64,000 bases of DNA from Amphiura filiformis. Lineage: Eukaryota; Echinodermata; Ophiuroidea; Amphilepidida; Amphiuridae. Below, in pieces: positions 34,601 through 61,600 of this stretch. The stretch covers positions 61,731,776-61,795,775 of the forward strand of contig NC_092642.1 of the NCBI RefSeq assembly GCF_039555335.1, in the 5' to 3' direction. How positions within the stretch are numbered: position 1 is the stretch's first letter; every line of letters starts with the position of its first letter. The notes below the pieces were generated by a model that saw only the letters and a list, made by a program, of their open reading frames with translations, was not told where the DNA came from and searched no databases. The position numbers and the translations under genes were made by a program.

Positions 34601-37600
34601 GATTTTTCTTGTTCAACAAAAATAAAAAATAAGAAATAAAAAATCGTGTTCAAGTTTTTTTGAGGTTGCGCAGCCCCCTAGTTATCACGTTGATTCCTGT
34701 GGTAGGCTGCCCTATTGTATTAGCGTAGGCATGATATCCTAGTTCTGTATACTTTATAGCATGGCACAGTGTGTGCTTCTCGTTTGGCAGCAATAAACCG
34801 ACACCAAAATGCTATATTTGTTGCTGTGTGTATGTTGTGCGATGTATGGATAGTCATAGTAAGGGTTTAGCAAAGAACAGGATTATTTTCACATTTCTGT
34901 TTGCCAAAAAGGTGATGTCAGAAACATAAAATTTTTTATTTTGTGTCATTTTCCCAGGCTTTTCAGAAGTTCAATATTGTGAGGTTTTCGACAGCACCAT
35001 TGACTATTGAAATTGAAGATGTAAATGATAACTGTCCAACATTTGATCAACCAGAATACAGCGGTATTATTACTGTGGAGGATATATATGTGATGAATAA
35101 CGCCACCCAGGAGAGGATGTTAGTTACTGCTACCGATGCTGATATTGCTTTGGTAAGGAGTTAATTGTTAATTCTTTATTTGTGATGAATAATGAAACCC
35201 AGGACAGAATACTCATTACTGCTATAGCTTTGGTAAGGAGTCAATTGTCTGTAAGTCAGTTCCTAAAAAAATGACCTCTGACCTTGGGCACTACTGCCTT
35301 TCTTACAGTGCCCCTGATTGGTTAATTACATAATAGAATCATCTTAGTAACCAATCAAAATAGAGCTTTAAAGTCTCTTAGCAACTCGTGAGCTTGATCC
35401 CCTTCAGTCCTATTGACTATTCTTACCATATCTCTGATTGGCTCAATAGATGATATATCCCGTTTTCTAACCAATCAAAATAGTTCTTAGAGGCTGATAA
35501 TTTGGCAGGTAGTACTCATGAGGTTCTGAAACTGTTATGCAAATATCATTGGTTCATGCCTATGTCATATGAGCTGATATGGCTGCAACGTACATGTCTA
35601 TGTGTTATCATCTTTTTATGTTGTTCCATTTCAGCCATTCAATGGGGAATTGCAATATGATTATGGTGATGCTCTAGGTATATTTGAAGCAACAGACGAA
35701 CAAATACCGGGGACAAATTCCAAGCAGATATACATCCAGCTCTTACATCCAGGGTTACTGGATAGTACTAGAAATTACTACATACAGGTAATAAATTTCC
35801 GTAAAAACTTGATATTTAGCATATGTGCTTACTATCGAGCGCTTTAGAAAACATGAAATTGTACCAAAGTCTGGCGCTTTACCAACTAAGCTAATGGGGT
35901 TGACATATTTGCAGGTTTACTTGTTCGTATATAACTATGTGTATTGATGATTTGCTCAAAACCCTTTACACTTTTGTGGATGGGGCTCTTCATGTTTGCA
36001 TGTTTTAAAAGTGCTTGATAGTAAGGACATATGCTAACTATCGATTTTTTTACGGTATGACAATAGTAAAACAAGTTGGTATAAGGTATATAATTCTATT
36101 TACATACAAATAGAGAGCTATCTCCTCTGAACATCCCAGCAAAAATCAAGGTCTGTGCCCTTATTTGCTGGTGTGGGAGGGAGCTTGTGCATTAAACTCC
36201 AGTTATATCAAAGGAGCACATATACACCACCAGGTGAATATTTTTGGTATATTAATAATGACTTTTAAAAGCATTCCAGTAATTTTTGACTGAGTATGTG
36301 CAGTGGCAGCACCAGGATTTTATTCCGGAGGGTGGGCATTGGGGATAATGAATTTCGGGGTGGGGGGGGGTGGGGGGTGGTGAGGTGGCAAACATTACAA
36401 AAGTTGCAGTAAAATGGAAATTTTTATAATTTTGGAGGTTTGCCATCAAAGTGGGGAGCAAGAAAAAAATGGGGGACAAATAACCCCTTTGCCCCCCCCA
36501 TAGTACCCCCTTGCCCCTCGTAGTTTGTGGTCATATTAATTGATCTGCTCATTATCTTCTATTTGTATAGGCTTCAGTCACCGATGTCAGTATAACATGC
36601 CAACCAGCACCACCCGGCTACTATGACAGTACTATTGAAATCAGACCAGTGGACCTGTCACCCAGATTTGACCAGCCCGCTTACTTGGCAAGCATCCTGG
36701 AGGAGACAAAATATGGGACCATTGTCACTTCGGTAAGATGTGTGTGTGTGTGTGAAATCACCTTTGACTATACTCTGATCAGCTCATAATCGGCGGGATT
36801 CATAACGTCATGGATTGATATAGAATGGCTTACACACAGCTGGGCAGAGCACTTACGCAAATTACGCTTTGCGTATTGTGTGACTGGCATGCTCTTTTGT
36901 GAATTTACGCAGGCGTAAGTTGGAACTTAATTGACTCGCGCAGTAACAAAAAAACGAATAATTCTCGTTTGTTATGAGCTGGTCATAGTATAGCCTGCTT
37001 TAATACTTGCTAGCATCCTAGAAGGCAATAAATATGAGACCATGGTCACCTCTGTTAGATGTGTTAAATGCGTGTTTGCCGCAAACGAGGACACACACAA
37101 GATTTTTCACCCTAAACTGCGGACTTACTTCCAACCAAGGACAGTCCTCAGTCTCAAACTGCTGCAAAAGACCTCAAATGCATGCTAAATGCATTATAGC
37201 ACTATTTGCCTTAAACCGAGGTCCACACGTGTAAAAACTACAGTCAGCAGTTAATGGATAAAATTCTGTTTCGTATTATACACAAAAAATCTGCCATTTT
37301 AGTCCACAACACACATCCTCGGTTAGATAGCGATGTACACTGTGCTCGGTTGGCGACAAACACACACAGGGGGTGTTTGGTTATGTGAAATCAGACCAGG
37401 GACCTGTCGCCTTGATTTGACTTGCCGCCAGTTTATTTGTAGTCTCTTTGCACAAACCAGTGTATGGAGTGAGCAGAATCAACCCAGTGGCAAAGGGGGG
37501 CTATTTCTATGAAGCATGATTATTATTTATTATTAGACAAATAACATAAATAATTGATGTCAGGTCAATCATTCGGTGAATAACCGTTATTCGCACAAAA

Positions 37601-58600: not shown

Positions 58601-61600
58601 TCTCCGATTTTACCACATTTCATTTTTTATCAGTGAAATCCAGAAAAAAACACCACATTTTCATGTATAAAATGTCCAGGAACAATATATTTGTGATTTT
58701 ATTGTTGGTTAAATTTTTGTATATCACAATGAAATCGATAACACTTAATTAAAATCAATTTCACACATCAAGCCTACTTTGTAACTGATGGATCAAAAAA
58801 TATTTGATATTTGAGACTCATTTTGCCATAAATCCTGACAAAAGAATAAAAATAAGTAAGACAGTGTATTTCCCCACCTGACTCATTAGCTCAGTTGATA
58901 GGGCATTGGTCCGTGGTCTAATGCTGAATTTATACTCGATCGCTTTTGCAGAAAAGCGATTCTCACACATGCTCAGTGTTTACTTACATTTCCAGAGCGC
59001 AAGCCGATCAATTGATTTAAATCACTGAGACAAAAACGATGTCGCTTTTGCAAGTTGAAGAAATCTCAACTTCCCAGCGATATCACTTGACACGTGAATG
59101 CGTCAACCAATCATATACAACCAACTGGATCTATTATTTTGCTAATTAATTTACCTTTCTCAATTATTAACTTTTGGTGTTGAATTAATTCAAAACAATA
59201 ATTATATAAAAATGTATTTTGTGGCATTTAGAATGCTTTAATTGTCGTCTGCAATTGCTATCGCCGTGATGAGTATAAATGCAAAAGCGACGAGCGATGC
59301 ATCGGAAAATTGGGCGATTGACCATCGCTTTCCAAAAGCGTTTCATCGCAAGCGCTCGGCGATCGAGTATAAATTCAGCTTTACGGCCACAGGTTCAAAT
59401 ACTGGATGATCATTGATTTTTTTCATTGGTTCTCAAGGACTGGTATTAAAAACTATTTCTCATGATACCTCAAAGAGGGAGAGCCGTGTCCAATGCAGCT
59501 AGTAAAGCATTCCACGTCCTAATTGTAGTAGGGAAGAAGGCATAATGGTACATCAAGCTGGAGGTTATATCTAGATTTTTGATATCAAGCTATTTTTGTT
59601 TTCATTCTTAGATTTATAGTGGTCAAATCGAGGGCCCAAATGATGGCATATTTGGGATAGAAGAGAACCTGGTATCAGATGGTAGTGCTACAGAAGTCTA
59701 TGTTACATTGGATGACCCTACAAAACTAGGATTGGATTTCTATACTGTATTGGTAAGTGGGTGGGGTGGGCTGTGGTGGGGGAGGGGAGGGTTGTATGGG
59801 GGGGGGAGGGTTGTATGGGGGGGTTGCATTTTGAATGGGATATGTATGTATGTGTGGATGGTAGTGCTATATAAGCCTCTGTTACATTGGAAGACCCTAC
59901 AAAACTAGGATTGGATTTCTATACTGTATTGGTAAGTGTGTAATGTATGGTAAGGGGAGTGTAGTCTGGGATGTGTGGGGGATATGTGTAGGATGGGTGT
60001 GTGTGTGTGGATGGTAGTGTAAAGAAGTCTATGTTACATTGGAAGACCCTACAAAACTAGGATTGGATTTCTATACTGTATCGGTAAGTGTGTAATGTAT
60101 GGTAAGGGGAGTGTAGTCTGGGGTGTGTGGGGGATATGTGTAGGATGGGTGTGTGTGTGTGGATGGTAGTGTAAAGAAGTCTATGTTACATTGGAAGACC
60201 CTACAAAACTAGGATTGGATTTCTATACTGTATCGGTAAGTGTGTAATGTATGGTAAGGGGAGTGTAGGCTGGGATGTGTCGGGTAATTGTGTATGGGAT
60301 GGGGGTGTATGAAGTATAAAGCAATAATCATGAGGAGTGGATGCTACAAAAGGTGCAATGTATGAAGCTTCAAAGGCACCCAAAACTGATGAAATGTTTG
60401 CCACAAACAACTAGATAACAAGTTATACAAATAAAGAAGTTCAAAGAAAATTTATGCTGTACAAATGTGATAAATACATTAGAAACTTATGAATAAGTAA
60501 GTCAAATGAGTTTTAAAAGTTTTTTGGCCTACTATAGAATATCTGTGTGGATGACTGTGCAGGTGGGTGTTTGTATGTGTTTTGCTTGGGTGTTTGGTGA
60601 GCTACTTCACTATCCAAATTTTTTGTAATGCATTGAGGTGATTCTGCTTGTGTATTAAAGGTATTTTTTTACCAATGATAAAATGCAATTGGATGGTATA
60701 CACATTATATCCATTTATGAGATTTGGTTTAATATGAATAAATGAACTGCTTAATTTACTGGTTTCTTTTGTCTGCAGATCTCAATAACTGACGATACCA
60801 TGACCGTACCAAGTGTCCCACCATGTGACGACATCATAGCTAATGTCAGCATCATCATCACTGCAGATTTATCCCCAGTGTTTATCATCCCTCCTGGAGG
60901 ATACATAGGATATCTGCCGGAGAATTCACCAATCGGTACATTTATTATTACAGTAAGTAATTGTCTCACATGGGTAATTAATAAGGGTTTTTAGTTTGTT
61001 TGTTGCTTTTTATGCCTCCACCAGAAGTATTATGTTTCCTGGTTGTCTGCCCATCCGTTATTCTGTCATTCCGTCCGAGCTTGCGTGTGCTATTTTTTTG
61101 GAACTGATAAGGAGTATCGTGATGTGATTTGGTGGAGGGAATTTGTTCACATTTCACAGTGAAAAACATTATTTTTGCGGAGTAAATACAATTGTACTGA
61201 GAAAGGAGAATTTCGCAGCGTGGTGCGCGATTTCGCACTGCGAAAATCGTAGGAACCTGCTTATAACCTATGCAGAATGATTGTACATGCATGTGTAAAA
61301 AATGAGAGCACAATTTGTTCTCAAACTAGTGAGGATGGCTTCACTCTGGCCAACTGTAATCTAAGAGAGGGCAAGTGAGGCCAACTCAAGGTCGGCACAT
61401 CATCATCAAGGAGCACATCATCAATTTTTTGGTGGGTATCCTCTCCCAGAATTTGGATATAGTGGTTCTTTGGGAGCTGATGGTGTACCAGTAAAAGGGG
61501 AGTCTTTCAGAGCTGAGAATGGTTAAATCAAGGCTCTTGTTTGGATTTCTGGTTGAAAGTTATCTGAAAAAAACCCAGAAATGTGAGGAATGAGCAATTT

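Follow-up and report, generated by a model that had tools for sequence, protein, structure and literature searches.

Tandem repeats that lie across exon-intron boundaries, at donors as well as acceptors, have been described in amphioxus as 'mirages' (PMC3087553). They occur in Adh3, the globins BflGb6 and BflGb9, troponin C (TnC) and PGBD5 (PMC3087553, PMC3902484), TnC and PGBD5 having been added by PMC3902484. Their units measure 10-72 and 150-160 bp, and AG or GT is kept in many, but not all, of the copies (PMC3087553); the units in PGBD5 are 60 and 108 bp long (PMC3902484). The two reports record no aberrant mRNAs from the Adh and TnC mirages and undisturbed regular splicing at the globin mirages, and the authors allow for the possible use of cryptic sites (PMC3087553, PMC3902484). 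Here we analyse a stretch of 64,000 nucleotides from contig NC_092642.1 (the window), in which a single cadherin gene carries duplicated exon-intron junctions at nine places. The locus is a real and dense case of a known kind: the copies are probably minisatellites of the mirage type, which would be silent through use of the exon-proximal splice site. The original prediction made for this DNA knew of no standard mechanism that directs tandem duplication to splice junctions, and this needs correcting, since such boundary duplications are in print for several amphioxus genes (PMC3087553, PMC3902484) and boundary repeats for human genes (PMC2812944).

The published mirages and the cadherin repeats share boundary-spanning tandem units at donors or acceptors, comparable unit lengths and splice signals in many copies; as described for amphioxus, the unit adjoining the exon can also differ from the inner units, which is seen here at exon 16. 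The cadherin gene differs in having nine such places, representing about eight births in one gene. The minisatellite of human IFI6 (6-16, G1P3) reportedly supplies several splice donors too; its unit is very short, and it forms a single array in a single gene. Minisatellites that overlap exon-intron boundaries and can alter splicing are also present in human genes that lie in segmental duplications; as PMC2812944 describes them, however, their average unit is 30 bp, half lie within coding exons and they are associated with new introns and with alternative transcripts. Duplicated splice signals are likewise a feature of intron gain by tandem duplication, treated in PMC4974935 with citation of ATP2A1 and fission yeast cases; there a new intron is made, whereas the cadherin copies remain inside an existing one. 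Our literature search turned up no comparable per-gene count of boundary duplications. What is new here is this count, a test of junction preference inside a single gene, the probable common ancestry of two arrays, and an array, that of exon 21, with which it can be tested whether donors are chosen by position.

Exons 10-29 of the gene, numbered as in the original prediction, lie on the + strand at 34958-62580, and all 20 annotated exons are preceded by AG and followed by GT; the main tests were restricted to these exons. A four-exon repeat pattern (A, B, C, D) corresponds to two cadherin repeats per module, with a phase-2 intron before the A exons and phase 0 inside the module. Exon 10, which is of the A type, departs from the other A exons in its start phase, and its start is the least certain. 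Exons 10-25 join into 907 aa with no stops, and this peptide matched the Pfam family Cadherin (PF00028, E=2.9e-54, five stretches) and cadherin structures in the PDB, with CELSR1 as the best match. Exons 27-29 are open reading frames. Exons make up 12.3% of the 27.6-kb segment. GC content is 37.0% and the CpG ratio 0.57. Two likely cadherin exons further upstream, near 20.7 and 25.6 kb, were picked by eye; their peptides gave no Pfam match.

The window was compared with itself by blastn (E up to 1e-3, offsets of 20-1200 bp, alignments of at least 35 columns). Twelve local direct duplications were found in 34958-62580, and in nine of them an exon junction lies inside, namely the donors of exons 10, 12, 15, 16, 19, 21 and 27 and the acceptors of exons 20 and 24:

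34958..35152, + strand: exon 10 (A type), with one degenerate donor copy at 35177-35248 (71% identity over 84 aligned columns) whose donor TTG/gtaagg is intact after 35232.
36571..36732, + strand: exon 12 (C type), with donor-side fragments at 37004-37064 (79% over 62 columns, offset 322) and 37386-37421 (offset 750); the copied donor, TCT/gttaga, scores <5.
39855..41022, + strand: donor array of exon 15 (exon 39782-39937), built of 113-bp units and 152-bp compound units; 10 units including the true one, with seven listed decoy donors that have GT and one copy without GT.
41686..42224, + strand: donor array of exon 16 (exon 41585-41734), 68-bp unit; seven units including the true one, with five decoy donors that have GT and one copy with CT instead of GT.
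49624..50317, + strand: irregular donor array of exon 19 (exon 49538-49684), copies 131-199 bp apart; four diverged copies, GT kept in two and lost in two.
50380..50531, + strand: acceptor-side single copy upstream of exon 20 (50504-50674), without the acceptor AG (GCAA replaces GCAG).
51553..52232, + strand: donor array of exon 21 (exon 51404-51591), 80-bp unit x 8.5 with 98% matches; seven decoys, CAG/gtaagt, equal the 9-mer of the true donor, and the last, truncated copy has CAG/gtagaa.
55350..56153, + strand: acceptor array of exon 24 (exon 56063-56224), unit of ~127 bp, with five decoy acceptors upstream.
59678..60311, + strand: donor array of exon 27 (exon 59612-59752), with units of 179 and then 152 bp and three decoys; every copied unit also bears a second donor-like site, ATG/gtaagg.

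All nine places named in the original prediction were thereby recovered at about the same coordinates, with the same split into seven donors and two acceptors and with differing unit sizes, as it had claimed. Its division into six arrays and three single degenerate copies stands for the arrays (exons 15, 16, 19, 21, 24 and 27) and for exons 10 and 20; exon 12, however, has two scattered fragments rather than an adjacent copy. The units hold both exon and intron sequence at all nine junctions, and the copies lie downstream of the true exon in seven of seven donor cases and upstream in both acceptor cases. Unit lengths are about 62 to 155 bp, with single spacings of up to 199 bp (exon 19) and fragments 322 bp away (exon 12). 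The three local duplications without a junction are at 38873-39040, 44723-44915 and 45262-46372, the last being an intronic minisatellite with a GGTCA-rich unit of ~118 bp, off any exon. A run of ~12 bases common to exons 12 and 15 is likely due to chance.

Two of the arrays lie in a part of the gene that is itself duplicated:

48564-51596 and 58218-62585, + strand: internal gene duplication, in which exons 18-21 are repeated as exons 26-29, ~10 kb apart.

The regions of exons 20/28 and 21/29 show 89-91% identity, and the 62 residues encoded by exon 21 recur unchanged in exon 29, with seven synonymous changes between the two exons. An alignment of the exon 19 array with the exon 27 array covers 741 columns at 71.5% identity, and GTAATGTATGGT follows the copied donor in one exon 19 copy and in all three exon 27 copies, but neither true donor. 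Most simply, the alignment and the shared sequence would mean that the two arrays have a common ancestry and that the array predates the duplication of the module; later exchange or gene conversion between them could be the alternative. Because the two are probably related, we count about eight births instead of nine. The earlier claim of independent events with the same geometry thus keeps its repeated duplication and its geometry, but overstates independence by one. Self-comparison of the window found no array at exon 29, the paralogue of exon 21, and no counterpart of the exon 20 copy at exon 28.

The repeats resemble mirages in each respect in which we compared them: the units span boundaries, both boundary types are affected, the unit lengths fall in the published range and the true exons are intact beside the arrays. 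On this basis we infer that each array would begin with a short tandem duplication of about 60-155 bp straddling an exon-intron boundary, further copies being added later by slippage or unequal exchange. A duplication that spans a donor would leave the full exon and its first donor in place and add half an exon and a spare donor to the intron; at an acceptor the outcome would be the mirror image. If the spliceosome takes the exon-proximal site, which is the first donor or the last acceptor, the copies would be silent, nearly neutral and free to drift. Normal protein would be made only in carriers that use the exon-proximal site, and in all nine cases the true site is the exon-proximal one.

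The number of duplicated junctions was compared with chance by scattering units of the observed lengths randomly over the segment. A junction lies within nine of the 12 local duplications, against 1.48 expected (P=6.8e-7), so that by event count junctions are duplicated about six times more often than expected within this gene. If exon 27 is left out as a copy of exon 19, the count becomes 8/11 (P=2.9e-6). With two weaker intronic repeats added, their lengths set to 60, the count is 9/14 (P=3.1e-6), or 8/13 without exon 27 (P=1.2e-5). When the gene was taken from 20.7 kb onwards, with two further repeats (the 1.86-kb intronic one and another) included, the 4-bp microsatellites left out and just the two upstream exons counted, a junction was present in 8/15 (P=2.3e-5), and among arrays of at least three copies it was present in five of six (P=2.6e-4). 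All of these P values are post hoc, the gene having been picked for the pattern.

A second count used 50-base intervals. Among 40 centred on junctions, nine have a strong copy within 800 bp (score at least 45) and 31 do not (score at most 24); the nine of 40 compare with 46 of 693 intron intervals outside the junction arrays (Fisher P=0.0017, the intervals not being independent). When array interiors are included there is hardly any junction excess (9/40 against 182/886 intron intervals, with 15/154 in exon interiors), and this version was not made the main test because the arrays themselves fill introns. The proposed junction enrichment therefore holds within the gene by event count, but not in the interval count that includes array interiors.

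Three points weigh against taking the copies as silent, mirage-type repeats. Neutral duplication at random places does not predict nine of 12 events at junctions. As far as PMC3087553 and PMC3902484 describe them, mirages are found in lancelets only. Finally, exon 26 (58228-58394), which has no array, carries one inserted base by comparison with exon 18, its paralogue, and is out of frame, making the function of the downstream part of the gene not certain; the frameshift may be an assembly error, a broken haplotype or a skipped module. The gene looks constrained, to judge from the stop-free joining of exons 10-25 and from the identical 62-aa peptides of exons 21 and 29, although recent conversion could also explain the latter.

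The first of these points would be met if duplication were actively directed to exon junctions, for example through breakage linked with transcription and splicing, such as R-loops over G-rich intron starts. Such targeting is compatible with the copies being mirages and would explain the junction bias that the mirage reading leaves open; we regard it as possible, if rather doubtful. Besides the enrichment by event count, it is favoured by the G-skew of the first 60 intron bases, with a mean of 0.51 for the seven array donors and of 0.15 for the remaining 13 (Mann-Whitney P=0.056) and values of 0.74 to 1.0 at exons 19, 21 and 27. However, the skew is just 0.12 to 0.33 at exons 10, 12, 15 and 16 and there is none at the two acceptor cases; in arrays 19, 21 and 27 it may be a product rather than a cause, arrays 19 and 27 are related and the numbers are small. 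The G-skew is thus a weak lead to transcription-linked breakage. The wider proposal, that short tandem duplications in this genome arise preferentially at exon junctions through a process tied to transcription or splicing, and do so outside lancelets, we consider unlikely.

The bias could instead be apparent, random minisatellites having overlapped junctions by chance in a gene rich in them. Other local repeats do occur in its introns, at the three places given above, the interval count that includes array interiors shows nearly equal proportions, and the gene was chosen after the fact. Chance placement would, however, yield 1.48 junction-bearing events where nine of 12 are seen, and the difference between junction and intron intervals outside the arrays also speaks against it, so that we judge this explanation improbable.

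The potential of the copies to act as splice sites was assessed with a donor scoring matrix built from the gene's 19 other donors. Our list of 26 decoy donors excludes any copy that lacks GT, the last, truncated copy of exon 21 and the second donor-like sites of exon 27. Eighteen of the 26 score at least as high as their own true donor (exon 10, 1/1; exon 12, 0/1; exon 15, 5/7; exon 16, 0/5; exon 19, 2/2; exon 21, 7/7; exon 27, 3/3). Donor-like sites scoring at least 9 within 700 bp downstream number 22 for the seven array exons (none of them at exons 10 and 12) against two for the 13 others. At exon 21 the sequence around the decoy after 51751 is the same as that around the true donor, from 39 bases upstream to 127 bases downstream, because the array opens with a 160-base stretch that is then repeated without change. 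Since the two sites are locally identical, position must be what guides any faithful choice of one over the other.

The original prediction had placed a stop soon after the true donors of exons 15, 19 and 21; we find one there and also for exons 10, 12 and 27. It had further proposed that use of a downstream decoy at those first three exons would truncate the protein, and 25 of the 26 listed decoy donors indeed lie past an in-frame stop, while the remaining one, the first exon 16 decoy, adds 68 bp and shifts the frame, the read-through stop of exon 16 sitting just after it. At exon 24, reading on from any of the five decoy acceptors meets a stop within 27 codons. The copies appear, from their reading frames, to show no sign of coding use.

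Such decoys might be kept as a regulatory device, in which their use would give truncated or unstable mRNA and so tune the output of the adhesion protein. The strength of the 18 decoys and the stops that use of nearly all listed decoys would meet agree with this idea. Against it, GT has been lost from a single copy each at exons 15 and 16 and from two at exon 19, and AG from the copy at exon 20. Nor are donor positions consistently better conserved in the three arrays measured: differences between copies in the exon, donor and intron parts are 0.129, 0.110 and 0.073 at exon 15, 0.118, 0.215 and 0.290 at exon 16, and 0.023, 0.083 and 0.083 at exon 21, where the donor and intron values are probably inflated by the truncated last unit. 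Exon 29 does without an array, and the amphioxus Adh and TnC mirages are, in the text cited above, reported without aberrant mRNAs and the globin mirages without interference in regular splicing. We found no evidence in the sequence that the copies regulate splicing, and give this explanation little credence. Similarity of the copies to the true junction shows no steady fall with distance, and we therefore make no claim that new copies originate next to the exon.

It has also to be considered whether the arrays are intermediates of intron gain or of a shift in exon boundaries. Published models, as set out for amphioxus globins and a potato gene, start from a similar structure. Exons 11-29, however, retain the four-exon pattern, and no additional intron is present at the junctions with arrays; this pattern suggests that no duplication has made a new spliced intron; we hold such intermediates to be very improbable here. 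An assembly artefact is hardly credible, for although this is a single assembled sequence and tandem arrays are error-prone, private and shared substitutions form higher-order patterns (the 160-bp double unit at exon 21, the 152-bp compound units at exon 15) and assembly errors would hardly produce copies that are 70-90% alike.

The exon 21 array makes the roles of sequence and position in donor choice directly testable. If junctions are truly preferred, this array would be a natural experiment in which the spliceosome chooses among locally identical donors by position alone. If the host is not a lancelet, mirages would be more widespread in animal genomes and would provide a lasting store of sequence from which new introns could form.

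Several other sequences were noted in the window. Upstream of exon 10, 26146-32039 holds three-plus tandem copies of a unit of ~1.86-1.89 kb, 94-97% identical and each with an AAAG tract, in which no cadherin exon was recognised. An element at 58884-59440 has 25-nt terminal inverted repeats (58919-58943 and 59359-59383) and appears to be inserted in sequence that by eye is tRNA-derived, although ARAGORN found no tRNA there; in the window as a whole there was no tRNA by ARAGORN and no Rfam match at gathering scores. When repeats of the window were looked for as exact sequences, two of them in viral contigs and one in prokaryote contigs, 0 matches resulted. Two open frames, 10119-10610 (- strand) and 22448-22720 (+ strand), resemble on inspection by eye the terminal part of a LINE reverse transcriptase, the former having no Pfam match. 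At 63700-63915 there is a tail-like sequence of about 42 ATCA copies following GGCAATAAAAT, which by eye resembles the 3' end of a retroelement.

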